Shown: positions 24,482 through 64,000 of the stretch, piece after piece
How positions within the stretch are numbered: the stretch's first letter is position 1
Layout: the number at the start of each line of letters is the position of its first letter
Assembly (NCBI RefSeq): GCF_025149465.1
Contig: NZ_CP102275.1
Location: 1,054,001 to 1,118,000, forward strand
Reading direction: 5' to 3'
DNA length: 64,000 nt
From: Thomasclavelia spiroformis DSM 1552
GTDB lineage: Bacteria; Bacillota_I; Bacilli_A; Erysipelotrichales; Coprobacillaceae
Made by a program: the position numbers and the translations under genes
The notes under the pieces: model-generated
Database searches by the model: none
What the model was told of the DNA's origin: nothing
The model's input: the letters and a program-made list of their open reading frames with translations, nothing else

Positions 24482-27400
24482 ATGACGAAGAAAAAATCAA
24501 ATAAAGTAATTAAGGTCACAATGGCAACCTTGGCAACAGCTCTTGTAGTAGGTAGCAATAGTGTTATTTCATTACAAGCAGTTAATAATGATAATAGTAA
24601 TGCGATTTTTTTAGATGAAAATAGTATTACATCGCCAATTATTATTAGTGAAATAGTTGCAGATAGTCATCAAAGTGATATGATAACAGCCAATGGAAGC
24701 GATGCTTTTGAATATTTTGAATTATATAACACTAGTAATCAAAGTATTAATCTAGATGATTACCAAGTGCTATATGATAATGGAAGTACTATTAGTGAGT
24801 GGAATTTACCGGTTAATACTATTTTACCAGCTAATCAAGCTTTGATTGTTTGGATTCAAAATGAAGAAAGTAAAGATTTAGATTTAGCTTTGTTTAGAGA
24901 ATATTATAATTTATCAGCTGATGAAGGTCAGATTGTTAAAACTGAAAATATTGTTAGTGGTTTTTCTAATAGCGGTCAAAGAGAACTACAGGTTACAGTA
25001 AAAAACACTAAACAAATTTTAAGTTCAGTAATTTATAATGATGAAGATGTAAAAGCCCAGACAAAAAAAGGAATTAACTTTATTTATAATTCCGGTAGAG
25101 TTCAAGAAAGTACTTATAGTTATGATTTAGATCCTACACCAGGTAGTTTGATTGAACAACAAGAATTAGAAAGTAAGTATCAATTTGTAACAGTAAATGA
25201 TGGAATTGTTACCGTTAATACTGCTCAAGAAATCAATGCTGGCGAAGCTTTGGTTGTAAAAGCTACAACTAATTTACCAGGAGTTATTTTAAAAGCAACT
25301 TTAAAGGTAAATGATAAAGAATATGATATGACATATGACAATGACGGTAATTATGTTTATAGTGTTCCTGCTAGTGAAATTAGTAATGAGGAGCTTTTAA
25401 ATATTAGTGCTACTTTTAATGATGGTATCAATGAAATTATTAGTGCAACGCAAACAGTCACTGTTAATAAAGGAACAGTTGAATTTGCTTCACCACTATT
25501 AATTAGTGAATTATCACCAAACAGCGCTAATGTTTCTGGTAGTGATGCTTATGAATATTTACAGATATTTAATGTTAGTGACCAAAAGGTGGCTGTAAAT
25601 AATTATCAGCTAGTTTATGTTAATGGTAATAAAAAAACAGTTTGGAAATTAGATGATGATATTGTCTTAGAAGCTAAAGAAGTGTTAACTGTTTGGATTG
25701 TTAATGATGCTGTAGAACAAGCAGGTTTAACAGTTGCAGATTTTAATAATAATTATGGTACTAATTTTGTTGCTGGTGATAATTTTACAACTATTCATAG
25801 CGATGGAATGAGCAATAGTGGTACACGAGGATTTAAAATTGTTACTAACACCAATCAAGAATTAACAGCTGTAGATTATACTGCTGGTGATTCTAGTAAT
25901 GGTAAAATCGACACCGATGAAGCTATTTATTATAATTACACTTCAAATTCTGGAGTACCCGTTTATAATAATGAAGTAACATTAGGAAAGTTAAATAGTC
26001 AACAATTAATTACTGGTAAATATTTAACACCAGCAATTGTCGAAAACCCTGAAGTTGAAGTAGTGGCTGATAGTTTTGTAAGTGCCAATGATAATTTTAC
26101 TGTAAGGTTAGAAAATACTAATCTTACTAAGATGATTATTGATGCTAAGTTAAATCTATATCAAGATGAAAATATCGTAGCTAGCTATGATTTATTATAT
26201 ACTGATGGAATTTTGAAGGTAGATGTACCAGCTCAAGATTTAACAGGTTATTCAAATTTAACATATGATGTTTCTATTACTGATGGTCTTAATAAAGCAA
26301 CTTCTGCTAAGAACACGGTAGTAATCGAACAACCAGGGATGATTGATCAAAGTAAGGTCGCTCCTTTGGTTATTAGTGAAATTATGCCTGATAGTTCTAA
26401 TGTTGGTGGCAGTGATGGTTATGAATTTATTGAAATTTATAATAATTCAAATTTGGATATTAATTTAAAAGATTATAAATTGTATTATAATTATCCTGAT
26501 CAAGGTGTAGATGGTGATGTTATCTGGTATGAAACTAATGAAGATAAAATTATCAAATCACATGATACATTAGTTTTCTGGATTAAAAACGGTGCTAATG
26601 ATGATTTGCAAATTAGTGATTTTAATAATAAATTTAATACTAATCTAGACAGTGATCATTTAATTTCAATCTATAATGCAGGAATGGCTAATGGTTCAGC
26701 TCGTGGGTTGAAAATAACTTCTAATATTAAAGATGTTTTAGATTATGTTTTATATAATATGGATGGTGTTGATGATACTACAGCTGATAAATCAATTGTA
26801 TATCAAAATAGATATGATGGTTTAACTTTTACTAGTGTACTAGTTGATAATGATGCTAAGCCATCACCTGGAACAGTGAGCGAAAAACCAATGTATGAAG
26901 CTGTTTTACCAGAAATTGTTTCTTTGCCGGTATATCAAGATCATACACCAACTACTTTTAATGAAGCTAGTGATTTAACTTTTTTACTTGATGCTAAATC
27001 TAACGAAACAACAATTAAAAGTGTTTATTTGTATTTAAAAGATAATAATAGTGAAGATTATGAAGTTTATAATTTATTACGTAATTCTGGCGATAATTTT
27101 TCTAAAACATTACCGGCAATAGATTTATATAATAAATCCTCATATACATATTATTTTGTTATTAGTGATGGCTATCAACAAATAACCACACCTGTTAACA
27201 CAGTTAATAATGAAAATCCAGTATCTACTGGTGATCAAATCAATATTAGTGAAGGTGCAATTATTAACCAGACTGAACAAATTATAGGTACTGGTAATAA
27301 TTTAATAATTGATGATCAGGATGTAACTAATAAAGCAGTTAAATCAATTAATGGAAACGCAAGAATTGTGTTTGATACTACTCAAACTGATGTTTTCTTT

Positions 27401-30280
27401 AAAAATGCAGTTGCTATTGGAAATGATGTAATTGGTGTTTTCAATGAAGGTACTTATAGTGATTGGCGAACATATGCTTATGATATAAATGCCAGCTACT
27501 TTGATAGTGAAACAAAAACAATTACAGTTGCCTTCCATGCGGGTAATAAAGCTAACGCTTTAGAACACAATGTTGAAAATAACGATGATTTTACTTTAAA
27601 AAATATTAGATTAACATTACCAGATGGTACAACTTTAAGAGCTAGTCAATATAGTGCTGTTTATGGTTTAGGAGCAGTTGAACATACTGAAGATAACTGG
27701 AAACCAGATAGTCCTGTTGAAGTGAATGATATTACTCCTGAAAAAGAAATTAGTATGGGTGATGGTACAAGCAAAGTTGAAATTTTATATGCTACTTTCA
27801 CATTAGATGAACAAAACTTTAACGCTTTACGTTATGATCTTGATACAACTATGTTAGAAGATGGTACTCATAGTGTAACAAGTGGTAGTAAGACAGTATC
27901 ATTTGTTAGTGATAATACGGCCCCTGTTATTGAAACTAATATGGTTGAAGGTCAAATTTATCATAATGGAACTGTTGAAGCTAGTGCACAAGATGCTATT
28001 TGTGATACAAGTACTTTAATTGCTACCCTTGATGGACAAGGAATTGAATTGCCTTATGATTTTCGTTCATTAGAAATGACTCCTGGTAATCATCAATTAG
28101 TATTAACTGCTTCAGATATGATTGGAAATGTTACTAGCAAGGTAATAAACTTTGTAACTCCAGAAGAGAATGCAGCAATTAATGGGGAAATAACACCAGT
28201 AAGTGGGACAACTATTAATGGTGATCCAACATTTAAAGTTACTGTAAGTGATAGTACTGATGATTTGATGCAGGTTGCTTTCAAAAGGGGTGAACGTTAC
28301 CTATTAGGTGATGCTAATATTACTTTGTCTAGTGGTGTTAGTCAGATTTCTGGTAATAATACTCAAGATTTCAGTGGTGATTCTGGTGATGGTTTCCCTT
28401 ATCAACAGTTTGATGTTAAAGTAAGTGGTAATATTAGTGATGAGGCAACTGTTAAGATTGATTGGGAAGGTAAATCTAATAATCAAAAGACTTTTATGTA
28501 TGCATATAATTATACAACTAACACTTTTGATAAATTAGATACGATTATGGAAATTGATGATGAAACCATGAAATTAACCGGTGAAGTAATATTGAAAGAT
28601 CACTTATTTGATCAAACAATTAAAATTATGGTTCAAAATGGTGAAGGATATACTCCTAATCAATATGGAGAAGATGTTACTGGTACAATGTCTAATCCAG
28701 CAGATACTCCAAGAGAAAACTATGATTTTACATTTGCAATTGAAAGTGATACTCAATATTATAATGAAGACTTTGATGGTAATCCGGTTCAAGATGTTGA
28801 TGGAAACTATCAATATCAATTAGATATTCATAATTGGTTGATAGCTAATCGTGAACGAATGAATATTCAGTATTTATTCCATGATGGTGATATTATTGAT
28901 GACGAAGATCAAGGACAAGAATGGATCAATGCTGATAATGCTTATAAAATGCTTGATGATGCTAATATACCTTATGGTGTTTTAGCTGGTAATCATGATG
29001 TTGGTCATTTAAGTGGTGATTATACTTCTTTCTCTAAATATTTTGGTGAAGATCGATATAATCAAACCCCATGGTATGGTGAAAGTTATCAAGATAATCG
29101 TGGGCATTATGATTTAATTACTGTTGATGGTATTGATTTTATCATGTTATATATGGGATGGGGTATTGGTGACCAAGAGATTCAATGGATGAATGATGTT
29201 TTGGCTAAATATCCAGAAAGAAAAGCAATTTTGAATTTCCATGAATACCTATTAGCTAGTGGTGGCTTAGGTGAAGAACCACAACGAATCTATAATGAAG
29301 TCGTAGCTGTTAATCCTAATGTTTGTATGGTTTTATCTGGCCATTATCATAATGCTCAAACAGTAGTATCGCAGTTTGATGATAATCATGATGGTGTTAA
29401 TGATCGTAATGTTTATCAGATGTTATTTGATTATCAAGGCTTAGCCCAAGGTGGTATGGGTTATATGCGATTGATGCATTTTGATAATACTAATGGACAA
29501 ATAATTATTAGAACATATTCACCTTCATTAGATGATTATAACGCTAAAGATGAAAGTAACATTGGTGATGTAGCTAATATTAATGGCGAAGAAGAATTTA
29601 TAATTAATTATAGTGATTTAGGAATTACACCAGTTCAAAAACAAATTGAAACAACAAATTTAGATGTCAATATTTATACAAATGATACTTTTGGTATAGT
29701 TGATGGTGTAAAAAGTAATCAGGAAGTTAGTTATACATTAGAAAATGCTCCTCATGGACTATTTGGCTGGTATGTTGAAATTAGTGATGCTAATGGTGGT
29801 TTAACAAGATCAAATGTTAATTATGTTAATATTGATAAACAAAATATCAAACCAACGATTGTATTACCTGATGATGAATTTAATAAGGTTGCTGTAGGAA
29901 CAGATTTTGATCCATTGAAAGATGTTAAAGCTTATGACAGCCAAGGTAATGATTTAACTAGTCAAATTGTTGTATTAGGGAGTGTCGATGTTGATAAAGC
30001 TGGTAGATATAAGTTGGTATATCAAGTAACTGATAGCTTTAATAATGTTACTATTGTAACTAGAATAGTAGAAGTTGTTGAAAATGATGATGATCAAGAT
30101 ATCAATGTTCAACCAGAAAATGATAGTAATACAAATGGAACTACTAGTACATCTGACAATACACCATTTACAGGGGATCTTGTAAATATTAATTATTTAA
30201 CATTGGCAATTGTAAGCTTAATGGCTTTTATAATAACGATTAAAAAATATTTAAAAAATCTAAAAAATAATCATAAATAA
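24482..30280 (+). CDS. Wall-anchored multidomain protein: lamin-tail domains and metallophosphoesterase
   Basis: A 1932-residue exported protein. A signal peptide (1-33; KKKSNKVIKVTMATLATALV) is followed by three lamin-tail domains beginning at SPIIISEI (about 48), SPLLISEL (about 337) and APLVISEI (about 632), each with a GSDAFEYFELYN-like core. Further beta-rich regions lead to a calcineurin-like phosphoesterase (about 1414-1690) with metal-ligand motifs SDTQ (D1423), GDIIDD (D1470), GNHD (1503-1506), NFHEY (H1587) and GHYH (H1621, H1623). A bacterial Ig-like domain (about 1795-1870) precedes the anchor TPFTGD (1894-1899), a membrane helix and a Lys-rich tail. It probably hydrolyses an extracellular phosphoester on the cell surface; the substrate is unknown. 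The sorting motif lacks the Leu of LPxTG. The start has GGGGGATG upstream. Confidence 0.93.
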   Translation: MTKKKSNKVIKVTMATLATALVVGSNSVISLQAVNNDNSNAIFLDENSITSPIIISEIVADSHQSDMITANGSDAFEYFELYNTSNQSINLDDYQVLYDNGSTISEWNLPVNTILPANQALIVWIQNEESKDLDLALFREYYNLSADEGQIVKTENIVSGFSNSGQRELQVTVKNTKQILSSVIYNDEDVKAQTKKGINFIYNSGRVQESTYSYDLDPTPGSLIEQQELESKYQFVTVNDGIVTVNTAQEINAGEALVVKATTNLPGVILKATLKVNDKEYDMTYDNDGNYVYSVPASEISNEELLNISATFNDGINEIISATQTVTVNKGTVEFASPLLISELSPNSANVSGSDAYEYLQIFNVSDQKVAVNNYQLVYVNGNKKTVWKLDDDIVLEAKEVLTVWIVNDAVEQAGLTVADFNNNYGTNFVAGDNFTTIHSDGMSNSGTRGFKIVTNTNQELTAVDYTAGDSSNGKIDTDEAIYYNYTSNSGVPVYNNEVTLGKLNSQQLITGKYLTPAIVENPEVEVVADSFVSANDNFTVRLENTNLTKMIIDAKLNLYQDENIVASYDLLYTDGILKVDVPAQDLTGYSNLTYDVSITDGLNKATSAKNTVVIEQPGMIDQSKVAPLVISEIMPDSSNVGGSDGYEFIEIYNNSNLDINLKDYKLYYNYPDQGVDGDVIWYETNEDKIIKSHDTLVFWIKNGANDDLQISDFNNKFNTNLDSDHLISIYNAGMANGSARGLKITSNIKDVLDYVLYNMDGVDDTTADKSIVYQNRYDGLTFTSVLVDNDAKPSPGTVSEKPMYEAVLPEIVSLPVYQDHTPTTFNEASDLTFLLDAKSNETTIKSVYLYLKDNNSEDYEVYNLLRNSGDNFSKTLPAIDLYNKSSYTYYFVISDGYQQITTPVNTVNNENPVSTGDQINISEGAIINQTEQIIGTGNNLIIDDQDVTNKAVKSINGNARIVFDTTQTDVFFKNAVAIGNDVIGVFNEGTYSDWRTYAYDINASYFDSETKTITVAFHAGNKANALEHNVENNDDFTLKNIRLTLPDGTTLRASQYSAVYGLGAVEHTEDNWKPDSPVEVNDITPEKEISMGDGTSKVEILYATFTLDEQNFNALRYDLDTTMLEDGTHSVTSGSKTVSFVSDNTAPVIETNMVEGQIYHNGTVEASAQDAICDTSTLIATLDGQGIELPYDFRSLEMTPGNHQLVLTASDMIGNVTSKVINFVTPEENAAINGEITPVSGTTINGDPTFKVTVSDSTDDLMQVAFKRGERYLLGDANITLSSGVSQISGNNTQDFSGDSGDGFPYQQFDVKVSGNISDEATVKIDWEGKSNNQKTFMYAYNYTTNTFDKLDTIMEIDDETMKLTGEVILKDHLFDQTIKIMVQNGEGYTPNQYGEDVTGTMSNPADTPRENYDFTFAIESDTQYYNEDFDGNPVQDVDGNYQYQLDIHNWLIANRERMNIQYLFHDGDIIDDEDQGQEWINADNAYKMLDDANIPYGVLAGNHDVGHLSGDYTSFSKYFGEDRYNQTPWYGESYQDNRGHYDLITVDGIDFIMLYMGWGIGDQEIQWMNDVLAKYPERKAILNFHEYLLASGGLGEEPQRIYNEVVAVNPNVCMVLSGHYHNAQTVVSQFDDNHDGVNDRNVYQMLFDYQGLAQGGMGYMRLMHFDNTNGQIIIRTYSPSLDDYNAKDESNIGDVANINGEEEFIINYSDLGITPVQKQIETTNLDVNIYTNDTFGIVDGVKSNQEVSYTLENAPHGLFGWYVEISDANGGLTRSNVNYVNIDKQNIKPTIVLPDDEFNKVAVGTDFDPLKDVKAYDSQGNDLTSQIVVLGSVDVDKAGRYKLVYQVTDSFNNVTIVTRIVEVVENDDDQDINVQPENDSNTNGTTSTSDNTPFTGDLVNINYLTLAIVSLMAFIITIKKYLKNLKNNHK

Positions 30281-49487: not shown

Positions 49488-52400
49488 ATGATAAAAAAAT
49501 TTTTTAAGGTTTTAGTGAGTAGTATGATGGCCTTTATGTATGTTATGCCATCAGTAGCAACTACAACATTTGCAAAAGAAGACTATCTAGTAGTAGATGA
49601 CAATGTAACATCCACTACTCTTCAAAATTATTTTATTTATAGTGAAAGCGAAGATGATGCGGGATTAACTGGTTGGTCCAATTCAGATGCTAAAATCGGT
49701 GAAGGCGAATTAAAAACACAGCACTGGGTTTGGAATGAGAATAATACCGAAGCAAGTAAACATAGTTATCAGTTTACTTTCGTAGGTACAGGTGTTGAAT
49801 TAATTGGAATAACTCCGACTGGTTCATCAAAAAATATTTACAAACTTGATGAAGGGGAATCAGAGGAAGTTACACTTGAAACTACAGGGGTAGCAAAAGA
49901 ACAAGTTTTATATTCCGTTAAAAATTTAGCGTATGGAACTCATACTATAACTGTATTATTACCAAATGATGGAAGTCAAAAAGGTTTACAAGTTAGTTAT
50001 GCTAAAGTGTATGGTTCTAGAGCAGAAATAGAAGAAACAACTACAATTTCTCATAAAAAAACTTCAGGAACTAGCAATAAATTTACTTTCTCAGATGGAC
50101 ATTGGTTAGGTGATAGTGATGAGCATACTTGGTCAACAATTCCTCCAAAAGATAATCCAAAAGAAGTTTATTATACTGTAGATTTTGTTGGACATGCTAT
50201 TGATATCTATGCTGGAAAAAACAAACCAATGGGTTATGTTGCATATTATGTAGATGATATTTTTTATGGAGAATATAGTTTATATAATAAGGAGAATATT
50301 AACTCTACGTTGATAAAAAAAATCGATGGATTAAGTGAAGGTAAACATACTTTAAAAGCTGTTGCTACAGGTAAGAAAGAAGATGCTGCAACAAACACAG
50401 GAATAGACTGTGCTAAGGTAGTTGTATATCATGCTCCATATGCTGTAAATGGTATTGAGATTGCAGATAAAAATATCACCTTAATTGAGGGTGCAACACA
50501 TCAAATTACTTATTCAGTTACACCAGATTACGCTGACTTAAAAGATGTACGTTATGAAACAGCTGATTCAAATATTGCTTCAGTTAATGCAAAGGGCGAA
50601 ATTATTGCCGAAGGAGTAGGAGACACTATAATTACTGTAATTTCTGATGCATATAGCATTAAAGAAGAAATAAATGTTACGGTTGAGCAAGGGACTTTAA
50701 GTTTACATGGTAGTATTGTAGATATTGATACTCAATATACTCAAGAAACTTATGATAAAGTTAATGAGCTAGGATTAACATCAAAAAAATTATTTGGGTG
50801 GAAAAATGATAGATTATTATCAGAAATTGCATTAATTACAAAAGGATGTTCGTTGAAAAATGTGAAAGTTACTGCAACGGATTTAGTAAGTGGAGATAAT
50901 ACTATTAGTAAAGATAATATTACTACTACGTTTATTAAATCGACGAAAGCTTATAATGGACCATTTTTAGGATATGGTAGCACAACACGTCCTGTACCTG
51001 AAGATAATGGGAAAAATAGAGGAGAAAGTTCTGATATTTTATATCAAACATCCCCAATTAATGTTGGATTCAATAAAGTTCAACCAGTTTGGGTTGAACT
51101 TTATATTCCAAAAAACGCTGTAGCTGGTAAATATACAACAACTTTAACAGTGGAAGCTGATGGCTTAGATAACCCATTAACATTTACTTATATAGTTGAT
51201 ATTAAAGATGTAACTTTAAAAGATGCTGACGAATATAGGGATTCATTTGATATTGAATTATGGCAATATCCTTATGCGTCTGCTGAGTATTATGGTGTAG
51301 TTCCTTTCAGTGATGAACATTTAGAAATCATGAAATCTGGAATGGAACTATATAAAAGTATTGGTGGTCATGCAATCACAACCACAATTGTAGAAGAAGC
51401 ATGGGGTGGACAAACTTATAGTAAAAATGATGTTCATTACCCATCAATGGTTAAATGGACTAAAAATACAGATGGTTCATTTAATTATGATTATACAGAT
51501 TTTGATAAATGGGTTGAATTTAATAAATCATTGGGAATTGGAGATAAAATCGTACTTTATAGTATTGCGCCGTGGCATAATTCATTTGCTTACTGGGAAG
51601 GAAATAAATTGACTTACGAATCATACACAGTTGGAAGTGATCGTTATAAAAAAGTTTGGGGAGATTTCCTAAAAGATTTGATTGATCATCTAATGGAAAA
51701 AGGTTGGTTTTATGATTCATATATTGGAATTGATGAAAGAGGATTTGATGGAAGAGCATTTGATTTAATTGATTCAGTTGTAAATATTAATGATGTTCCT
51801 TTAAAAACTGCTGGAGCAATGGATCATTTCACAACTAAAAAAGATTTAGCTCTAAGAGTTACTGATTTAAATGTTGGGGACACTGCAGCGGCAGCAAATC
51901 CAGAAGCGTTTAGTGAATTAGTAAAAGAACGTGAAGCTTTAGGATATAAAACTACGTTATATTCTTGTACTGAACATCAACCAGGAAATTTCTCTTTAAG
52001 TGCACCAGTAGAAAGTTATTGGTCACTAATTAATGCTGGTCAAGAAACTGGAGGATTCTTACGTTGGGCATATGATGCATGGGTTGAAGATCCATTAAAT
52101 GACGCAACTCATAACGCATTTGAGCCTGGCGATTGTTTCTTAATCTATCCAGATGTAAAAGGTACTGAAAACCCTGTTTCAAAAAGTTCTGTTCGTTTAG
52201 AAAGAATGGGGGAAGGGGTTCGTGATGTTAACAAAATTAAACAAATATTAGCTGAAATTCCTAGGCTACAAACTGATGTTGACGTAATGTATTCTAAAGT
52301 TACCCAAATTGCCAGAACGGTTAATAATAGATACATGACAGAAGCAGAAATCGAAAAATTAGCTGAAGAAATGAATACCTTCAAATCTGATTTAAATGAC

Positions 52401-55379
52401 TTAACTGATAAATATATCAAATTAAAAGAAAATGGTACTAATGACGTTGAAAGTGTTGAGATTAATGAAAATAATGTAGAAGTTACATTAAACGGTACAA
52501 AACAATTAACTGCAAAAGTATTACCTGAAAATGTATTAAATTCAAACGTTTACTGGGAAAGTTCGAATGAAAAAATTGTCTCAGTAGACAAAAATGGAGT
52601 TGTTACAGGAAATAAATTAGGCTCTGCAACAATTAAAGCAGTATCATCACAAGATAAAACCAAGTTTGATACAATAAAAGTGACTGTTACTACAGTTAAA
52701 ATAGATGAAGAATCTCAAGAATACTATTATCCATTTGAGGGAAATGCTGATGATTCTTGGGGTGATAGAAATGGTACAGTAAATGAAGCACAATTTAAAG
52801 ATGGAAAGTCCGGAAATGCATTATATATTGACAATGAAAAACAGAATGTTACTTTTGAAGAAGATAATAAATTTAATCAAGATTCTTCATGGTCAGTAAG
52901 TTACTGGGTGAATTGTACTGCAGAATTAAATAAACGTGTTTCCGTATTAATGGATCGAGGTTTAGATTTCTCATTCGACTTAAAAATGTCTCCAACACGT
53001 GATGCGGGATTCCATGTTGGTAAAAAAGATGGAGATGTTTTAACATTTGCATATCCATTTAAAGAAAATAATTGGTACCACATTGTCTGGACTCAAAGTA
53101 AGCAAGACGGTTTATCAATGTATGTAAATGGTAAATTTTTTGCGAATAATAACTGGACAAAAACTGGAAAAACATTAGCTCCTATTGATGTTATTGGTGG
53201 AACAGGATTTACTGGATATATTGATGAATTAAAAGTTTATAATCGAGTATTAAGTCAAGCTGAAGTTACTTCTGATATGTTATTAAAAGGTTTAAATGTT
53301 AGTGAAAAAAATGTTAATATGTTCTTAAATGAAACTTATCAAATTGAAACTAATTTAATTAGTGATAATGTTGATAAAACAATTACATATAAATCATTAA
53401 ACCCTCTAGTTGCTACTGTAAATGATGAAGGAACTGTAACAGCAGTAGCAAAAGGTAAAGCAATCATTGTTGTTGAAAATAAAGCTGGTGGATTTAGAGA
53501 AGAAGTTGAAATTAATGTTGAAAAGAAAATTAATATTAAAAACGTGTTGAAAACATATGAACTTCCAGAAAAATACTTAAGTGATGTTGAAAAGGCACCA
53601 GGTACTGATCGTCAATATTTAGGTCAACCAGATATGGTTAGAACTAAATCTGGTCGCTTAATTACGGCTTATCCTAAAGGACATGGAAAAGGACCTATCA
53701 TCATGAAAATTAGTGATGATAATGGAGAAACATGGACTGAAAAAGAAAACACTCCAAAATCATGGGTTGGATCTCAAGAAACACCTACTATGTATGTCTT
53801 AAATCTCGAAGATGGAACTGAACGTATTATGTTGATTACTGCTTGTCCTGGATGGGGGACTGACAACGATGGCAATACTTATGGATGGAATACTAGTTAT
53901 TCTGATGATAATGGAGAAACATGGACAGAATACAAACATTTCTATGAGAAGATTCGTGGAAATGATGATAATGATGCAATCGTTGCGATGGCAAGTTTAG
54001 TGCAACTTAAAGATAAAGATGGAAATTATATCCAAAAATGGATGGGTATTTATCATAACTATGCTTATGAAAACTTCAAAACATACTTAACATTTGATGA
54101 AAATGGTAATGAGGTATGGAGTGAACCAGAGACTTTTTTACAAGATTATCGGTCAATTGAAAAAGAATATCAAATGTGTGAAATTGGAATGTTTAGATCT
54201 CCTGACGGTGAACGTATCGTTGGTCTTGCTAGAAGCCAATCACATAAAAATCCAACAACATTAATTTATTCAGATGATGAAGGTGAAACATGGTCTAAGC
54301 CAATAGATTTACCAGGTTCTTTAGCTGGAGAACGTCATAAAGCTACTTACGATCCAATTAGTGGGAGATTGTTAATTACTTTCCGAGAAATTCAATATGA
54401 TTTAAACGACAATGGTAAATTTGATGGCGGTAATGACTGGCACTGTGGTGAATGGGTTGCGTGGGTTGGAACTTATGAAGATTTAATGAACCAAGAAGAT
54501 GGTGATTATGTTATCCAATTAGAAGAAGATTGGGCTCAAAATACATATTCTGGTGATACAGGATATACTGGTGTAGTTGTCCTAGAAGACGGTACATTTA
54601 TCATGGATTCTTATGGTCACTGGAATCGTGAATTCTCTGAAAATTGGGGATGGGGTAAAGTAACAACTGACTTATGTTATATCAAACAAGCAAAATTTAA
54701 AATTGGTCATTTAGAAAATGCCTATGGATTAGTAAATCGAGATTCATTAAACGAATACATTGAGAAAGTGAAAAAAGAATTATTACCAGAAGATTCTTAT
54801 ACTGAAAAATCATATGCAGAATTCATAGAAGCATATAATCATGCTTTAGATGTACAGGATGATGATTTCTCACAACAAGTTCAAGTTGATAAAACTTTAG
54901 ATGTATTAAAAAAAGGTTTTGAATCATTGGTAAAGAAACCAGTAGTAGATTTTAATAAATTTTATAAACTATTAAAAGAAGCAAACGCACTAAATAAAGA
55001 TGATTATACAAAAGAATCATTTGATGTATTACGTGCTGCTATAAGCGTAGCAGAAAAAATTGATGAAAATGCTACACAAGAACAAGTTGATTCAGCTACT
55101 AAATTACTACTAGACGCTATGGATGGTTTAGTTAAAGTGAATAAACTTCCTTGGACTCCACTTGAACCAAGTAAACCACTTGAACCAAGTAAACCACTTG
55201 AACCAAGTAAACCAATAAAACCTGCAGAACCTATTGAAGATGAAAAGGAAGATAATGCTAATCCAATAACAGGTAATACAAACAATGTTGCGTTATATAG
55301 TACATTTGCAGTGATATCATTAATTGCTCTTGGTGCTATAATCATTAAACAAAGAATAACGAATAATCAAAATTATTAA
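49488..55379 (+). CDS. Wall-anchored glycosidase: GH123-like plus Asp-box sialidase-like domains
   Basis: A 1963-residue exported protein. Signal peptide (1-30), two beta-sandwich modules (about 35-305), Big_2 domain (about 320-400), a DUF4091/GH123-like catalytic region (about 400-910) with the adjacent acid pair D749-E750 in YIGIDERGFDG, Big_2 (about 985-1075), LamG-like domain (about 1078-1260), Big_2-like (about 1266-1345), and a beta-propeller (about 1360-1740) with three Asp boxes (SDDNGETW near 1408 and 1471, SDDEGETW near 1594). Two FIVAR modules, PLEPSK repeats, the sorting motif NPITGN (about 1925), a membrane helix and a short tail follow. GH123 enzymes remove beta-GalNAc; with a sialidase-like fold this suggests attack on mucin or glycolipid glycans. 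A sialidase FRIP motif is not obvious, so the second activity is uncertain. Confidence 0.9.
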   Translation: MIKKFFKVLVSSMMAFMYVMPSVATTTFAKEDYLVVDDNVTSTTLQNYFIYSESEDDAGLTGWSNSDAKIGEGELKTQHWVWNENNTEASKHSYQFTFVGTGVELIGITPTGSSKNIYKLDEGESEEVTLETTGVAKEQVLYSVKNLAYGTHTITVLLPNDGSQKGLQVSYAKVYGSRAEIEETTTISHKKTSGTSNKFTFSDGHWLGDSDEHTWSTIPPKDNPKEVYYTVDFVGHAIDIYAGKNKPMGYVAYYVDDIFYGEYSLYNKENINSTLIKKIDGLSEGKHTLKAVATGKKEDAATNTGIDCAKVVVYHAPYAVNGIEIADKNITLIEGATHQITYSVTPDYADLKDVRYETADSNIASVNAKGEIIAEGVGDTIITVISDAYSIKEEINVTVEQGTLSLHGSIVDIDTQYTQETYDKVNELGLTSKKLFGWKNDRLLSEIALITKGCSLKNVKVTATDLVSGDNTISKDNITTTFIKSTKAYNGPFLGYGSTTRPVPEDNGKNRGESSDILYQTSPINVGFNKVQPVWVELYIPKNAVAGKYTTTLTVEADGLDNPLTFTYIVDIKDVTLKDADEYRDSFDIELWQYPYASAEYYGVVPFSDEHLEIMKSGMELYKSIGGHAITTTIVEEAWGGQTYSKNDVHYPSMVKWTKNTDGSFNYDYTDFDKWVEFNKSLGIGDKIVLYSIAPWHNSFAYWEGNKLTYESYTVGSDRYKKVWGDFLKDLIDHLMEKGWFYDSYIGIDERGFDGRAFDLIDSVVNINDVPLKTAGAMDHFTTKKDLALRVTDLNVGDTAAAANPEAFSELVKEREALGYKTTLYSCTEHQPGNFSLSAPVESYWSLINAGQETGGFLRWAYDAWVEDPLNDATHNAFEPGDCFLIYPDVKGTENPVSKSSVRLERMGEGVRDVNKIKQILAEIPRLQTDVDVMYSKVTQIARTVNNRYMTEAEIEKLAEEMNTFKSDLNDLTDKYIKLKENGTNDVESVEINENNVEVTLNGTKQLTAKVLPENVLNSNVYWESSNEKIVSVDKNGVVTGNKLGSATIKAVSSQDKTKFDTIKVTVTTVKIDEESQEYYYPFEGNADDSWGDRNGTVNEAQFKDGKSGNALYIDNEKQNVTFEEDNKFNQDSSWSVSYWVNCTAELNKRVSVLMDRGLDFSFDLKMSPTRDAGFHVGKKDGDVLTFAYPFKENNWYHIVWTQSKQDGLSMYVNGKFFANNNWTKTGKTLAPIDVIGGTGFTGYIDELKVYNRVLSQAEVTSDMLLKGLNVSEKNVNMFLNETYQIETNLISDNVDKTITYKSLNPLVATVNDEGTVTAVAKGKAIIVVENKAGGFREEVEINVEKKINIKNVLKTYELPEKYLSDVEKAPGTDRQYLGQPDMVRTKSGRLITAYPKGHGKGPIIMKISDDNGETWTEKENTPKSWVGSQETPTMYVLNLEDGTERIMLITACPGWGTDNDGNTYGWNTSYSDDNGETWTEYKHFYEKIRGNDDNDAIVAMASLVQLKDKDGNYIQKWMGIYHNYAYENFKTYLTFDENGNEVWSEPETFLQDYRSIEKEYQMCEIGMFRSPDGERIVGLARSQSHKNPTTLIYSDDEGETWSKPIDLPGSLAGERHKATYDPISGRLLITFREIQYDLNDNGKFDGGNDWHCGEWVAWVGTYEDLMNQEDGDYVIQLEEDWAQNTYSGDTGYTGVVVLEDGTFIMDSYGHWNREFSENWGWGKVTTDLCYIKQAKFKIGHLENAYGLVNRDSLNEYIEKVKKELLPEDSYTEKSYAEFIEAYNHALDVQDDDFSQQVQVDKTLDVLKKGFESLVKKPVVDFNKFYKLLKEANALNKDDYTKESFDVLRAAISVAEKIDENATQEQVDSATKLLLDAMDGLVKVNKLPWTPLEPSKPLEPSKPLEPSKPIKPAEPIEDEKEDNANPITGNTNNVALYSTFAVISLIALGAIIIKQRITNNQNY

Positions 55380-56121: not shown

Positions 56122-56291
56122 AAAAAGTACCAGATTACACAAACATGAAACAAGTGACGATATAAATTATGTTGTTTCTGGTACAGGGAAAGCCATTTGT
56201 GACGGAAAAGAAGAATTGTTAAATGCGGGTACTTGTCATATCTGCAAGAAAGGTTCCAAACACAGCATTATCAATACTGGAAATGAAGATT
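56122..56291 (+). pseudogene. Cupin-domain fragment
   Basis: The frame RLHKHETSDDINYVVSGTG, DGKEELLNAGTCHICKKGS and KHSIINTGNEDL is the metal-binding core of a small cupin (His pattern HKH ... H). It is bounded by IS termini on both sides, so both ends of the gene are lost. Confidence 0.75.
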
Positions 56292-56337
56292 TGGTACTAT
56301 GTCAAGATTTTGGACTACATAAATGTAAGAAATTTAA

Positions 56338-57153
56338 TTAATTGATACTAATTAAATAATCATGCTCATATTCATTAGGTGATTTATAATCACAATGTGA
56401 ATGTACTCTTATTGTATTATAAAATCCTTCTATGTATTCAAATACCAGCTTATATGCATGATTATAATTTATAATCTTAAATCTGTTCAGCCATTCCCTT
56501 TTTATCAATGCATGATATGATTCTATACACGCATTATCCCACGGTGTTCCTTTTTGTGAATAGCTTCTTTTCATCTGCTTAGTTAATCTTTTGTATTTCT
56601 TCGATGTATAGTGCACTCCGCGATCTGCATGGATTACTATTGGTTTTGCGCTTTTTCTTCTTTTTTTAGCTGTTTCCAGACATTTTAATACTTCATCTAC
56701 TTCTAATGTTTTGCTTAATGTCCATGCTATTATTTTTCTTGAATAGAGATCCATTATACTGGTTAAATATACAAATCCTTCATCTGCTGTCCAGATATAT
56801 GTTATATCAGTACACCATGCCTGATTTGGTGCTTTTGGATTAAAATCTCGGTTTAGAATATTTTTTAGTTTATTTGAAAAATCACAGTCTTTTGTTGTTA
56901 TTGTATATGGTTTGATATAATGAGCTTTAATATTGTTTTCCCTCATTATGTTTCCTACATATTTTTCACTTATTTTTTCTCCCTCTTTTTTTAGTATTTC
57001 AGTTATTTTAGGAGCTCCATATATTTCTTTTGAATCCTTATAGATTTTCTTGATTCTTTCTGTGATTCTAGCTTTTCTGATTTTTTGTTTACATGGTTTT
57101 CTTTTCAAATATTCATAATATCCTGATTTACTCAGTTGTAATTTTTTTAGCAT
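56338..57153 (-). CDS. IS3-family transposase OrfB, copy 1
   Basis: A 271-residue DDE integrase-core protein (longer when fused to OrfA). HTH_21-like region ITERIKKIYKDSKEIYGAPK, then the catalytic residues in WCTDITYIWT (D), HADRGVHYTS (D) and NACIESYHALIKREW (E). All three are intact, so the copy may be active. It is read as an OrfAB fusion after -1 slippage at 57246-57252 on the minus strand. Confidence 0.95.
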   Translation of the reverse strand: MLKKLQLSKSGYYEYLKRKPCKQKIRKARITERIKKIYKDSKEIYGAPKITEILKKEGEKISEKYVGNIMRENNIKAHYIKPYTITTKDCDFSNKLKNILNRDFNPKAPNQAWCTDITYIWTADEGFVYLTSIMDLYSRKIIAWTLSKTLEVDEVLKCLETAKKRRKSAKPIVIHADRGVHYTSKKYKRLTKQMKRSYSQKGTPWDNACIESYHALIKREWLNRFKIINYNHAYKLVFEYIEGFYNTIRVHSHCDYKSPNEYEHDYLISIN

Positions 57154-57221
57154 ACCGGTAACTGAAGTCTGTTTATCTTTTTTAGATTTTTCTTTTATCC
57201 TTTTATAAAGATCCTGCTTAG

Positions 57222-57518
57222 TTAATTGCCCAGTATGCCAATAGCCTTTTTTAGGACTTCTAAAGCATCCTGTGTATCTTTCAGTTCTTTTTTTAATCTG
57301 GCAATTTCTTTAGCTTCGTCACTTGAATAATTACCGCTTCCTCTTGAATTAATTACGCCGTCATTACTACTGGCATCTTTAAGCCATTTATGAACAGTGC
57401 TATCAGCAATACCAAACTGTTTAGCTATAGCTACTTTAGATTCATCAGGATGTTCTAAAACATATTGAACAACTCCCTGTTTAAATTCATCTGTAAATGT
57501 TGGTTTAGTCATCATCAT
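57222..57518 (-). CDS. IS3-family transposase OrfA, copy 1
   Basis: A 98-residue HTH protein starting MMMTKPTFTDEFKQGVVQY, with an HTH (VAIAKQFGIADSTVHKWLK) and a leucine-zipper-like end (ARLKKELKDTQDALEVLKKA). The start is chosen at the ATG run at 57518, because AAAAGGGG lies just upstream. Near its end, CTAAAAAAGGCT has the slippery AAAAAAG (57246-57252, minus strand) that would give the OrfAB fusion. Confidence 0.92.
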   Translation of the reverse strand: MMMTKPTFTDEFKQGVVQYVLEHPDESKVAIAKQFGIADSTVHKWLKDASSNDGVINSRGSGNYSSDEAKEIARLKKELKDTQDALEVLKKAIGILGN

Positions 57519-57682
57519 ATACCCCTTTTCTATTTTTGATTTAAGCTTATGACATTGTATCATATACTAGCTAGTTCTTCCATTTAACTGGTACAGTTTT
57601 TATTCTAGCATCAATTTAATCTTGTTGACGGTCGTTGTGGAACGATAAATCTCAAAGTTTACAATTATATCCAATGTTACAT

Positions 57683-58170: not shown

Positions 58171-58611
58171 ATGATGATGCCTAGTATTTTTGGAGAAAAT
58201 TTATTTGATGATTGGATGGATTCTTTTGAAGAAGAATTTTTTGGAAGAAAAAATCCACTATATGGTAAACATGCAAAGAATATGATGAAAACAGATGTGC
58301 GTGAAACAGATGGCACATACGAAGTAGATATTGATTTACCTGGTTTTAAAAAAGAAGATATTTCAGTTTCATTTGAAAATGGATATTTAACTGTATCTAC
58401 AAATAAAACTCTTGATCGAGATGATAAAGATAAAGACGGTAAATATATTCGCCAAGAAAGATATGCAGGAAGCATGTCAAGAAGCTTTTTTATCGGAAAG
58501 AATATTCCTAAAGAAGATATCAAAGCTAAATATGAAGATGGTGTATTGAGATTATCAGTACCTAAAAAAGATATCAAGGTTATTGAAAACAATACAATTA
58601 GTATTGAATAA
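58171..58611 (+). CDS. hsp20: Small heat shock protein Hsp20
   Basis: A 146-residue alpha-crystallin-type holdase chaperone. The short Phe/Asp-rich N-terminal arm (FGENLFDDWMDSFEEEFFG) leads to the alpha-crystallin domain (about 40-135: DVRETDGTYEVDIDLPGFKK, ENGYLTVSTNK, GVLRLSVPKK) and the end with IEVIENN-type IxI element ISIE. GAAAGGGG ribosome site. The leader of about 100 bases can form GAGAAA/TTTCTC and CATTG/CAATG hairpins. Expression is governed by CIRCE; no other chaperone gene is nearby. It is an intact gene inside a region of mobile debris. Confidence 0.96.
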   Translation: MMMPSIFGENLFDDWMDSFEEEFFGRKNPLYGKHAKNMMKTDVRETDGTYEVDIDLPGFKKEDISVSFENGYLTVSTNKTLDRDDKDKDGKYIRQERYAGSMSRSFFIGKNIPKEDIKAKYEDGVLRLSVPKKDIKVIENNTISIE

Positions 58612-59113: not shown

Positions 59114-59208
59114 TGATGCTAGAATAAAAACTGTACCAGTTAAATGGAAGAACTAGCTAGTATATGATACAATGTCATAAGCTTAAATCAAAAATAGAAA
59201 AGGGGTAT

Positions 59209-59505
59209 ATGATGATGACTAAACCAACATTTACAGATGAATTTAAACAGGGAGTTGTTCAATATGTTTTAGAACATCCTGATGAATCTAAAGTAGCTAT
59301 AGCTAAACAGTTTGGTATTGCTGATAGCACTGTTCATAAATGGCTTAAAGATGCCAGTAGTAATGACGGCGTAATTAATTCAAGAGGAAGCGGTAATTAT
59401 TCAAGTGACGAAGCTAAAGAAATAGCCAGATTAAAAAAAGAACTGAAAGATACACAGGATGCTTTAGAAGTCCTAAAAAAGGCTATTGGCATACTGGGCA
59501 ATTAA
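59209..59505 (+). CDS. IS3-family transposase OrfA, copy 2
   Basis: Apparently the same protein as the copy 1 OrfA: N-terminal HTH for end recognition and C-terminal leucine-zipper-like helix. Start at ATG 59209 behind AAAAGGGG. The slippery AAAAAAG at 59475-59481 in the phase A-AAA-AAG permits a -1 shift into the orfB frame (KKGYWHTGQLTKQDLYKRIK), making the full OrfAB transposase. Confidence 0.92.
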   Translation: MMMTKPTFTDEFKQGVVQYVLEHPDESKVAIAKQFGIADSTVHKWLKDASSNDGVINSRGSGNYSSDEAKEIARLKKELKDTQDALEVLKKAIGILGN

Positions 59506-59573
59506 CTAAGCAGGATCTTTATAAAAGGATAAAAGAAAAATCTAAAAAAGATAAACAGACTTCAGTTACCGGT

Positions 59574-60389
59574 ATGCTAAAAAAATTACAACTGAGTAAA
59601 TCAGGATATTATGAATATTTGAAAAGAAAACCATGTAAACAAAAAATCAGAAAAGCTAGAATCACAGAAAGAATCAAGAAGATCTATAAGGATTCAAAAG
59701 AAATATATGGAGCTCCTAAAATAACTGAAATACTAAAAAAAGAGGGAGAAAAAATAAGTGAAAAATATGTAGGAAACATAATGAGGGAAAACAATATTAA
59801 AGCTCATTATATCAAACCATATACAATAACAACAAAAGACTGTGATTTTTCAAATAAACTAAAAAATATTCTAAACCGAGATTTTAATCCAAAAGCACCA
59901 AATCAGGCATGGTGTACTGATATAACATATATCTGGACAGCAGATGAAGGATTTGTATATTTAACCAGTATAATGGATCTCTATTCAAGAAAAATAATAG
60001 CATGGACATTAAGCAAAACATTAGAAGTAGATGAAGTATTAAAATGTCTGGAAACAGCTAAAAAAAGAAGAAAAAGCGCAAAACCAATAGTAATCCATGC
60101 AGATCGCGGAGTGCACTATACATCGAAGAAATACAAAAGATTAACTAAGCAGATGAAAAGAAGCTATTCACAAAAAGGAACACCGTGGGATAATGCGTGT
60201 ATAGAATCATATCATGCATTGATAAAAAGGGAATGGCTGAACAGATTTAAGATTATAAATTATAATCATGCATATAAGCTGGTATTTGAATACATAGAAG
60301 GATTTTATAATACAATAAGAGTACATTCACATTGTGATTATAAATCACCTAATGAATATGAGCATGATTATTTAATTAGTATCAATTAA
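59574..60389 (+). CDS. IS3-family transposase OrfB, copy 2
   Basis: Apparently identical to copy 1 OrfB, with intact DDE residues (WCTDITY, HADRGVHY, NACIESYH). The orfB frame is open upstream of its first ATG back to the slippery site, as needed for OrfAB fusion. As both copies match base for base where compared, they moved or were duplicated recently. Confidence 0.95.
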   Translation: MLKKLQLSKSGYYEYLKRKPCKQKIRKARITERIKKIYKDSKEIYGAPKITEILKKEGEKISEKYVGNIMRENNIKAHYIKPYTITTKDCDFSNKLKNILNRDFNPKAPNQAWCTDITYIWTADEGFVYLTSIMDLYSRKIIAWTLSKTLEVDEVLKCLETAKKRRKSAKPIVIHADRGVHYTSKKYKRLTKQMKRSYSQKGTPWDNACIESYHALIKREWLNRFKIINYNHAYKLVFEYIEGFYNTIRVHSHCDYKSPNEYEHDYLISIN

Positions 60390-60441
60390 TTAAATTTCTT
60401 ACATTTATGTAGTCCAAAATCTTGACATAGTACCAGATATT

Positions 60442-62604
60442 ATGGATAAAAAATATGATGTTTATTATGCTAAATCTATCAATGAAAACATATCTATTAA
60501 AGAGCATACGCAGATGGTATTAGATTCATACCATGAGCTAATGAAATTGAAAAAAATATATTTTAATGAAAAATTTGATAAAATGATCGAACTTTCAATA
60601 AAATATCATGATATTGGGAAAGTAAATACAATTTTTCAAGAAAAAATGCGAGGTCACTATACTAATGATGAGATTCCACATGGTTATTTAAGTGTATTAG
60701 CAGTTGATTTTAAAAAAATAGGATTTTCTAGAAAAGAAATTAAAGAATTTAAAATAATTATAAACTCAGTATTTTATCATCATCGTCGAGGTGAATTTTT
60801 AAAAGATAGAATTAAAGAGTTTTCAAAAGCCTATTATGAAGAGCAACTTTCAAATTATTTAGGTGATAATTATTATAATTTAAGTTATGCAAACTTAAAT
60901 TTAATTTATCCAAGAAATCCAACAAGTACAATTACCGATGAAGAATGGATTGAATTTGTAATAGTTAAAGGAATATTGAATCGCTGTGATTGGTCAGCAA
61001 GTGGTAATTTAGCTATTGAAATCGAAGCCGAGCAATCAATGAAAGATAATATATTAAAACGTTTTGATCTAAATAGTGTTCAAAAATTTATGATGGAAAA
61101 CTACAATGAAAATGTAGCTATTGTTGCAAGTACAGGTGCTGGTAAAACAGAAGCAGCATTATTATGGCTTAATGATGAAAAAGGCTTTTTTACTTTACCG
61201 ATGAAAGTTTCTGCTAATGCTATTTATCAAAGAATTAAAGAACATTATTTATTACCAATTAATAATCAAAATAGAGTTGCAATATTACATGGTGATTGTT
61301 ATAAGTTGTATGATAATGATTTAGCTAATTATCATAATGCTAGAAATTTGGCTTACCCACTAACAGTTTGTACTATTGATCAAATATTTAAATTTGCTTA
61401 TAAAGCTTTGGGAACTGAACATCTATTAGCCACTTTAAAATACAGTAAGGTAATTATTGATGAATTACAAGCTTATTCACCTGATATGCTAGCTACGATT
61501 ATTACAGCTTTGAAATACATCCATAAAATCGGTGGAAAATTTGCAATTATTACAGCTACATTACCACAGTTTATTTTAGATGAATTATCGACATGTAATA
61601 TCAAATACAAGAGATTTATTGGAAATATTAATAATCGTCATAAAATAACGATTCATGAAGATGATATGTTAAATGATTTAGATAATATTTTAGATGATGC
61701 TAAAACAAAAAAAATTTTAGTTATTTGTAATACTGTTAATTCAGCACAAAAATTATACACAAAACTTTTAGAACTCGATAGTAATACAGAAATTCATTTG
61801 TTACATAGTAGATATACTAAAAAACATCGTCAAATTCTTGAAGATGATGTAATTGAATTTTCAAAAAGTAATCGAACAGGAATATGTGTATCGACTCAAA
61901 TTGTCGAAGCTAGTTTAGATATTGATTTTGATGTTTTATATACATATCTTTCATCGATTGACAGTCTCATCCAACGAATGGGAAGAGTTTATCGTAAAAG
62001 AGAAAACATTAATCAATTAATTAATGTTAATATTTATACTTTTAAAGATGGGATTGGCTGTGTCTATGATAAAATAATTTATGAAAGAACATTAGATATT
62101 TTAAAAGATTATCATAATCAAATGTTTTTAGAAGAAGAAAAAATTAAGTGCATGGATAGGGTTTATGATCGAAAAGAATTAGAAAAAACAAGATATATGA
62201 AAATATATAATGAAAAGAAGGAGTATTTAAAAGATCTTATTGCTTTGCAAGTTGAAAAAAGTGAAGTAGATAATAAATTTAGAAATATTAATAGTATTTA
62301 TATCTTACCTGAACGTTTTTATAATTTAAAAGAAGTTGAAAAGTTAATTGATTGTATTAAAAGTGGTGAAAGTCAGACTACAAAAAAATATGAATTATTA
62401 AATAATTTAATTGATTACTGTATACCATATACAATTTATAAACCATTGAAAAGTAGTGATTATATTGATATAAAAAGTTGTATTAAAGGAGAAGCTATTC
62501 ATCGAGCACGTTGTAAATATGATTTTGATGATAAAATACATAAAGGTATTGGATTAGTTATTAATGAAATTGATGATAATGAATTAAATGATAAGTATGT
62601 TTAA
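60442..62604 (+). CDS. cas3: CRISPR-associated helicase/nuclease Cas3 (type I, HD fusion)
   Basis: A 720-residue Cas3. The N-terminal HD nuclease domain has H22 (IKEHTQM), the HD pair H56-D57 in KYHDIGK and YHHRRGE; the helicase has Walker A STGAGKTEAAL (about 229-239), DELQ box VIIDELQAY (about 336-344), ITATLP, and motif VI QRMGRVYRKR (about 510-519). It degrades target DNA recruited by Cascade. Size and the following cas4-cas1 order suggest subtype I-B. The ATG is 6 bases from the IS right end and has no ribosome site, and the effector genes (cas6, cas8, cas7, cas5) normally ahead are absent. Translation may thus be weak. Confidence 0.92.
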   Translation: MDKKYDVYYAKSINENISIKEHTQMVLDSYHELMKLKKIYFNEKFDKMIELSIKYHDIGKVNTIFQEKMRGHYTNDEIPHGYLSVLAVDFKKIGFSRKEIKEFKIIINSVFYHHRRGEFLKDRIKEFSKAYYEEQLSNYLGDNYYNLSYANLNLIYPRNPTSTITDEEWIEFVIVKGILNRCDWSASGNLAIEIEAEQSMKDNILKRFDLNSVQKFMMENYNENVAIVASTGAGKTEAALLWLNDEKGFFTLPMKVSANAIYQRIKEHYLLPINNQNRVAILHGDCYKLYDNDLANYHNARNLAYPLTVCTIDQIFKFAYKALGTEHLLATLKYSKVIIDELQAYSPDMLATIITALKYIHKIGGKFAIITATLPQFILDELSTCNIKYKRFIGNINNRHKITIHEDDMLNDLDNILDDAKTKKILVICNTVNSAQKLYTKLLELDSNTEIHLLHSRYTKKHRQILEDDVIEFSKSNRTGICVSTQIVEASLDIDFDVLYTYLSSIDSLIQRMGRVYRKRENINQLINVNIYTFKDGIGCVYDKIIYERTLDILKDYHNQMFLEEEKIKCMDRVYDRKELEKTRYMKIYNEKKEYLKDLIALQVEKSEVDNKFRNINSIYILPERFYNLKEVEKLIDCIKSGESQTTKKYELLNNLIDYCIPYTIYKPLKSSDYIDIKSCIKGEAIHRARCKYDFDDKIHKGIGLVINEIDDNELNDKYV

Positions 62605-62616
62605 AAGCAGGTGAAA

Positions 62617-63105
62617 ATGATGAAGAAAATATCAGGAACTATGTATGCGTATAGTTATTTATGTTGGCGAAAACTATGGTTTTTTGCTAAAGATATTGTA
62701 ATGGAGCAAGAAAATGAAAATGTTATGATTGGTAAACTAATAGATGAAGAAAGTTATAAACGAGATAAAAAACATATTTATTTAGATGATCTTGTTTGTA
62801 TTGATATTGTAAGAGATAATGTTATTTGTGAAATAAAGAAAAGTTCATCGAAGCTAGAAATGGCAGAACAACAATTAAAATATTATTTATATTTATTAAA
62901 TAAAAAAGGAATAGAATGTAAAGGAGAGCTATTGATTCCCAAAGAAAACCGTAAAGAGATGATAGTACTTAATGAAAATGATAAAATAATGATAGAAAAT
63001 AGATTAAAAGATATTAATGAGCTATGCAATAAAGTTACTCCACCAGAAGTTATTAATAGTAAAATATGCAAAAAATGTGCATATTATGAGTTGTGTTATA
63101 TTTAA
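62617..63105 (+). CDS. cas4: CRISPR-associated exonuclease Cas4
   Basis: A 162-residue RecB-like nuclease used in spacer acquisition to trim prespacers and select PAM. It has an N-terminal Cys (SYLCWRKLWFF), the RecB motifs GKLIDEESYKR and DNVICEIKKSS, and the C-terminal Fe-S cysteines in CKKCAYYELC. The start is placed at the ATG pair at 62617-62620, where AGGTGA lies just upstream; a GTG at 62611 is also possible. It follows cas3 by about 12 bases and is two bases from cas1, so one operon. Confidence 0.92.
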   Translation: MMKKISGTMYAYSYLCWRKLWFFAKDIVMEQENENVMIGKLIDEESYKRDKKHIYLDDLVCIDIVRDNVICEIKKSSSKLEMAEQQLKYYLYLLNKKGIECKGELLIPKENRKEMIVLNENDKIMIENRLKDINELCNKVTPPEVINSKICKKCAYYELCYI

Positions 63106-63107
63106 TA

Positions 63108-64000
63108 ATGGAGCAATCATATTATATTTTTACAAGTGGAGAACTTCGCCGAAAAGATGATTCATTAGTATTAATAAACGAAAAAGGTAAAAAAGATATT
63201 CCAATTGAAAGAGTATACGATTTATACATATTTTCTACAGTAAGTATTAATTCTACTTTACTATCGTTTTTATCACAAAAAGGTATTTGTGTGCATTTTT
63301 ACAATTATTATGATTTCTATATTGGTTCTTTTTATCCTAAAGAAACATTAGTGTCAGGTAGTTTATTAGTAAAACAAGTTGAAAAGTATCAAGAATATGA
63401 ATCAAGATTATTAATTGCTCAGCAAATTATAGAAGCTGCATCATATAATATTTTAAGAAATTTAAAATATTATAATTCTAGAGACAAAGATTTAAAACAG
63501 TATATTATGCAAATAGAAGAACTTAGAAAAGAAATATATTCTACTAGAAATATCTCTTCATTAATGGGTGTAGAAGGAAATATACGTAAAGTATATTATG
63601 AATCATGGAAAATAATAATTGATCAAGATATTGATTTTGAAAAAAGAGTTAAGCGACCACCTGATAATCTTGTTAATACACTTATTTCTTTTATGAATAC
63701 TATTATATATACAAAAACATTATCAGAAATATATAGAACGCAATTAAATCCAACTATTAGTTATTTACATGAACCATCAGATAAACGTTTTTCCCTTTGT
63801 TTAGATCTATCTGAAGTATTTAAACCATTGATTGTAGACAGAACTATATTTTCATTATTAAATAAAAATATGATAACAGAAAATGATTTTTATATTGATG
63901 ATGGTGGCTATTATCGAATGAAAGATTCAACTATAAAAGTTGTTGTTAGTGCATTGGAAAATACCCTAACAAGAAGCATTAAACATAAAGATTTAAATAG
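63108..64000 (+). CDS. cas1: CRISPR-associated endonuclease Cas1, cut by window end
   Basis: The integrase of spacer acquisition. Open from ATG 63108 to the window end (about 297 codons of an expected 330). N-terminal beta domain (YYIFTSGELRRKDDSLVLIN ... PIERVYDLYIFS) and helical catalytic domain with E156 in GVEGNIRKVYYESW and H221 in YLHEPSDKRFSLCLDLSEVF. The pattern is that of Cas1 of type I-B systems. It has no ribosome site of its own except the end of cas4. cas2 and the array would be expected just beyond the window. Confidence 0.95.
   Translation, partial: MEQSYYIFTSGELRRKDDSLVLINEKGKKDIPIERVYDLYIFSTVSINSTLLSFLSQKGICVHFYNYYDFYIGSFYPKETLVSGSLLVKQVEKYQEYESRLLIAQQIIEAASYNILRNLKYYNSRDKDLKQYIMQIEELRKEIYSTRNISSLMGVEGNIRKVYYESWKIIIDQDIDFEKRVKRPPDNLVNTLISFMNTIIYTKTLSEIYRTQLNPTISYLHEPSDKRFSLCLDLSEVFKPLIVDRTIFSLLNKNMITENDFYIDDGGYYRMKDSTIKVVVSALENTLTRSIKHKDLN

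Follow-up and report, generated by a model that had tools for sequence, protein, structure and literature searches.

The protein encoded at this locus of Thomasclavelia spiroformis DSM 1552 carries a GH123-like domain and an Asp-box sialidase-like propeller on one secreted polypeptide, which raised the questions of whether it acts as a single surface enzyme on mucin or ganglioside glycans and what a propeller without a FRIP motif would do. The window, the whole analysed stretch of 64,000 nucleotides, was taken from a genome consisting of a single contig of 2.53 Mb. Judged from its sequence, the window protein is predicted to be a bifunctional enzyme of the SiaBb3 type, with a probability of about 0.9, which would be secreted, anchored by sortase, and remove Neu5Ac and then GalNAc from Sda and GM2.

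The domain matches of the window protein (Table 1) were far beyond chance. The GH123 catalytic domain scored 284 bits against a curated Pfam cut-off of 23.1, Big_2 was matched over three stretches (E 3.4e-31), and the propeller region matched BNR_2 above the cut-off (E 6.4e-11) as well as BNR/Asp-box (E 4.7e-07). The FIVAR match (E 6.6e-05) reached 23.9 bits, below the curated cut-off of 29.2. Exactly three Asp boxes were counted with the strict pattern [ST].D.G.[TS][WFY], and the FRIP place of the propeller read GQPD. The initial annotation had placed both catalytic-type domains, LamG, Big_2, and FIVAR modules, and a P-x-T-G anchor on one protein, with three Asp boxes and no FRIP motif, and this layout was borne out by Pfam and the PITG motif, with FIVAR below cut-off. 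Modules A and B, which were additional to the domains listed there, gave no clear family match. The model of the N-terminal modules (pTM 0.56) yielded no clear fold, and Foldseek returned mixed matches, including several carbohydrate-binding modules, with a query-normalised TM of at most 0.34. The anchor motif was PITG in place of LPxTG, and the genome contained four sortase matches.

Table 1. Features of the window protein and its gene (window coordinates).
Feature	Coordinates	Strand	Basis or remark
Whole gene, predicted SiaBb3-type bifunctional alpha-sialidase / GH123 beta-N-acetylgalactosaminidase	49488..55379	+	single uninterrupted ORF, ATG start, 1963 aa
Signal peptide, about aa 1-29	49488..49574	+	judged by eye from a basic start and hydrophobic core
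N-terminal module A, aa 35-182	49590..50033	+	beta-rich; putative CBM-like jelly roll
N-terminal module B, aa 186-318	50043..50441	+	beta-rich; also in the SiaBb3-like ortholog
Big_2 module, about aa 322-400	50451..50687	+	Pfam
GH123 N-terminal domain, aa 411-556	50718..51155	+	PF22680, E 5.4e-27
GH123 catalytic domain, aa 592-918	51261..52241	+	PF13320 GH123_cat, E 2.3e-84; 5fqe match, E 1.5e-94
Predicted catalytic pair D749-E750 (SiaBb3 D617-E618)	51732..51737	+	alignment; SiaBb3 mutants in PMC12856340
Big_2 module, aa 987-1057	52446..52658	+	Pfam
LamG (Laminin_G_3) module, aa 1116-1260	52833..53267	+	Pfam, E 1e-16
Big-like module, about aa 1265-1345	53280..53522	+	PF22359, under its cut-off
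Asp-box propeller (predicted sialidase domain), aa 1375-1745	53610..54722	+	alignment to L095, structure model, fold comparison
Asp box 1, aa 1409-1416	53712..53735	+	strict pattern
Asp box 2, aa 1472-1479	53901..53924	+	strict pattern
Asp box 3, aa 1595-1602	54270..54293	+	strict pattern
E1565 (SiaBb3 E1430), on Glu of the GH33 Glu/Tyr pair	54180..54182	+	alignment
Y1693 (SiaBb3 Y1558), predicted nucleophile	54564..54566	+	alignment
Y1709 (SiaBb3 Y1574), essential in SiaBb3	54612..54614	+	alignment
FIVAR-type repeats, about aa 1750-1885	54735..55142	+	Pfam
P-I-T-G sortase-type anchor motif, aa 1926-1929	55263..55274	+	membrane stretch (about 55287-55346) and positively charged tail lie downstream

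SiaBb3 of Bifidobacterium bifidum (homolog BBPR_1596) was described by Katoh et al. in December 2025 as a bifunctional sialidase and beta-GalNAcase (PMC12856340). According to that report, SiaBb3 cleaved both 4MU-Neu5Ac and pNP-beta-GalNAc, converted GM2 to lactosylceramide (LacCer), and stripped Neu5Ac first and GalNAc second from GM2 and from the Sda glycans of mouse fecal mucin, and a sialidase-dead mutant freed neither sugar from this mucin (PMC12856340). Its sialidase domain was reported as diverged, with only three Asp boxes, and mutation of three propeller residues, singly or as a pair, was reported to abolish the sialidase activity (PMC12856340). SiaBb3 favoured 6'-sialyllactose over 3'-sialyllactose 20-fold and also cut non-Sda glycans, so that its Sda specificity is not absolute; Sda is given there as abundant on human colonic mucin (PMC12856340). 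In a literature search for further work on this enzyme, the name SiaBb3 was found only in PMC12856340.

When the window propeller was searched against 112 genomes of the genus Bifidobacterium, 3 showed a match. L095, an ORF of 1831 aa in a 2.2-Mb genome of the Bifidobacterium group (G083), carried residues D617, E618, Y1241, E1430, Y1558, and Y1574 at exactly the SiaBb3 numbers. Therefore, L095 was taken, by numbering and not by accession, as SiaBb3 or an allele of it; the published length is 1753 aa, and the net length difference must fall after residue 1574. All six mutated residues of SiaBb3 were kept in the window protein (D749, E750, Y1377, E1565, Y1693, and Y1709), and the loss of catalytic residues from both domains, which the initial annotation had named as the case against its own reading, was thus not seen. 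Identity between the window protein and L095 was 76.8% in the propeller, 65.7% in GH123, and 49.3% in LamG; counted across every aligned position, it was 56.7%. By sequence, the window protein is an ortholog of SiaBb3. Both have a core of GH123 followed by the propeller, three Asp boxes, and an xTG-type wall-anchor motif, whereas the window protein differs in its PITG motif, which is not of the class-E type, in the additional module A, which is absent from L095, and in belonging to another phylum. The proposal of a single surface machine acting on glycans of mucins or gangliosides is well supported by this characterised ortholog, which acts on Sda and GM2 (PMC12856340), and for SiaBb3 the idea is already in print.

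Over most of its length, the GH123 domain matched the solved GH123 beta-N-acetylgalactosaminidases (5fqe, 5l7r) with the Asp-Glu pair kept, and D749-E750 fell on the residue pair in which 5fqe and 5fqg differ. The solved chains, of up to 610 aa, have no propeller, unlike the window protein. Since the GH123 domain was less similar to that of L095 than the propeller was, its linkage preference could differ. An independent GH123 was reported to act on aGM2 and not on GM2 (PMC7531118).

The propeller was modelled by AlphaFold2 from 23 sequences, with a mean pLDDT of 92.0 and a pTM of 0.91. Comparison of the model by Foldseek and VIA-align returned mostly sialidases, including NanA (2vvz; Z 29.0, 3.1 Å over 329 residues) and NanI (2bf6; Z 27.8, 3.3 Å over 326 residues). 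The top fold match was Dfer_1899, a protein of unknown function (5hx0, Z 29.1). No close relative with a solved structure was found for the propeller; the best profile matches were Asp-box stretches of NanJ and NanB (E ~1e-4). The GH93 arabinofuranosidases were nearly as close in fold (2w5n, Z 27.3), as was a Pseudomonas pseudaminidase (2w38, Z 26.9); the substrate is therefore not named by the fold alone. That the propeller cleaves another sugar, for instance an arabinofuranoside or a different ulosonic acid, and is only marginally active as a sialidase in this branch, would fit these neighbours and an active site that departs from GH33, but it is very improbable given the propeller identity to L095 and the cleavage of Neu5Ac glycosides by SiaBb3. 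The suggestion in the initial annotation that the propeller activity may be new was not supported, since the propeller of the ortholog is an alpha-sialidase.

The arginine triad of GH33 sialidases begins with the (F/Y)RIP motif. The active site was compared with those of eight canonical GH33 domains, a set chosen for having RIP, in a global profile alignment. In this alignment, the GH33 Glu coincided with E1565 and the nucleophile Tyr with Y1693; one triad Arg was next to R1582, and the third had no counterpart. None of the 23 propeller sequences had Arg at the RIP position. At the loop of the GH33 acid/base Asp, the propellers had a GHG motif with His (H1399) in 22 of 23; no Asp was aligned at this loop, which was shorter. 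Residues Y1377, E1431, H1523, C1564, E1565, R1616, R1633, D1690, Y1693, and Y1709 were invariant in all 23 among the positions listed. The window propeller thus shared the fold, the Asp boxes, the Glu/Tyr pair, and one Arg equivalent with canonical GH33 (NanI, NanA, and L100), whereas the FRIP arginine was replaced and the acid/base Asp and third Arg had no aligned counterpart. A lectin for sialic acid or galactose, catalytically dead and serving only to target the GH123 enzyme, could also lack these groups and have only three Asp boxes, but this is highly unlikely because E1565, Y1693, and Y1709 are kept in all 23 sequences, their mutation in SiaBb3, singly or as a pair, is reported to abolish sialidase activity, and the ortholog with a closely similar propeller is an active sialidase. 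The absence of FRIP indicates that the active site is unusual rather than that the activity is new. The authors of SiaBb3 were likewise unable to assign residues from alignment, and its homolog is described there as missing from the CAZy GH33 list of March 2025 (PMC12856340).

Among 60 genomes, including that of the window and its relatives, 6 matched the propeller, one of them (G004) by a 52-residue fragment only. In this genome, of Thomasclavelia saccharogumia, the propeller was reduced to a 63-aa open remnant (L038:9001-9165). A scan of genome contigs with the propeller gave 61 loci, and 18 of these (L016-L033) had 53–81% identity over most of the domain. In 12 of the 18 close relatives, the locus also contained GH123 upstream of the propeller, with broken frames in L029 and L033; two were cut by a contig end, and four, from Actinobaculum suis and three Actinotignum, had no GH123 partner in the locus. 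GH123 was sought genome-wide in three of these four genomes and was absent from all three, so the pairing is not obligatory. Relatives occurred in Clostridium, Roseburia, Ruminococcus torques, Allobaculum, and Collinsella, the GH123 part being not visible in the last. Distant relatives in other bacteria (L034-L037, 26–35% identity) were without these partner domains, and a plasmid search for propeller relatives gave nothing beyond two haloarchaeal records at 25% identity. In a tree of the 23 propellers, Bifidobacterium, Actinotignum, Actinobaculum, and Collinsella were placed with Firmicutes within a well-supported set (97/99). The window propeller was in a fork that the tree did not resolve, and no transfer direction between Firmicutes and Actinobacteria is therefore claimed.

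The R. torques protein RUMTOR_01211 appears under both GH123 and GH33 in a published list (PMC12834350), and Allo_01388 of Allobaculum mucolyticum is listed as GH123,GH33 (PMC8409761). Judging from species and domains, the loci L026 and L028 probably represent these two proteins, respectively. Both had the core order of the window protein without its module A, and L026 differed further in an SGNH/GDSL esterase domain before GH123; the B. leontopitheci protein had an SGNH/GDSL domain at the same place as the R. torques one. On two polypeptides, L026:4858-11331 (R. torques) and L017:3338-9883, the SGNH/GDSL domain was N-terminal to GH123 and the propeller, perhaps giving three enzymes in one. 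On the protein of L022:7603-12603 (Actinobaculum suis), a SiaBb3-type propeller was combined with a canonical RIP-bearing GH33 domain. In two Bacteroidales contigs (L047:6961-8124 and L053:6967-8130), a GH123 gene and a distant Asp-box relative of the propeller were separated by about 1 kb.

The T. spiroformis genome also encoded a second GH123 protein (33% identity over aa 3-975, with only the N-terminal half and the FIVAR region of the query matched), a canonical sialidase (L077), and a NanE match, which are in line with host glycan use. Neither a scan of ten window ORFs nor one of three showed a glycan gene cluster. Elsewhere in the window, positions 24482-30277 encoded a protein of 1932 aa in which three stretches of lamin-tail domain were combined with a metallophosphoesterase domain and a surface Ig-like domain. 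Two perfectly identical, inverted IS3-type copies of 1328 bp (56286-57613 and 59114-60441) were 1500 bp apart, and between them was a small ORF (58171-58611) that resembled an Hsp20 heat-shock protein by eye. Starting one base past the right copy, positions 60442-63998 contained cas3 (with an HD domain), cas4, and a type I-B cas1. Neither TIGR01875 nor PF05107 gave a Cas7 match in the genome, so interference genes may be missing.

By analogy with SiaBb3, for which both activities and their order were reported, the window protein would be secreted and then anchored to the wall by sortase. On mucin O-glycans, the propeller would take the alpha2-3-linked Neu5Ac off the Sda trisaccharide, GalNAcb1-4(Neu5Aca2-3)Gal; GM2 would be an alternative substrate. 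The GH123 domain would be blocked until the adjacent sialic acid is gone, and would then remove the beta1-4 GalNAc. The LamG, Big, and N-terminal modules may serve as domain spacers, perhaps as glycan binders.

With somewhat less than even confidence, we further propose that these propellers form a separate sialidase family, or a clear subfamily, with an active site rebuilt without the FRIP arginine and the classical acid/base Asp. Residues R1616, R1633, R1582, E1431, and H1399, which are invariant or nearly so, would hold the carboxylate and protonate the leaving group, perhaps with His for Asp, in a site shaped to reach the Neu5Ac that is crowded in Sda and GM2. Such a propeller would move between gut phyla mostly joined to GH123; some species would add an SGNH esterase, which could remove O-acetyl groups first.

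The unusual active site is the part of the window protein that deserves the attention of specialists. A dedicated Sda degrader would also be carried by Thomasclavelia-like Firmicutes, and the invariant propeller residues would be direct targets for learning the mechanism of a sialidase that lacks the FRIP arginine.
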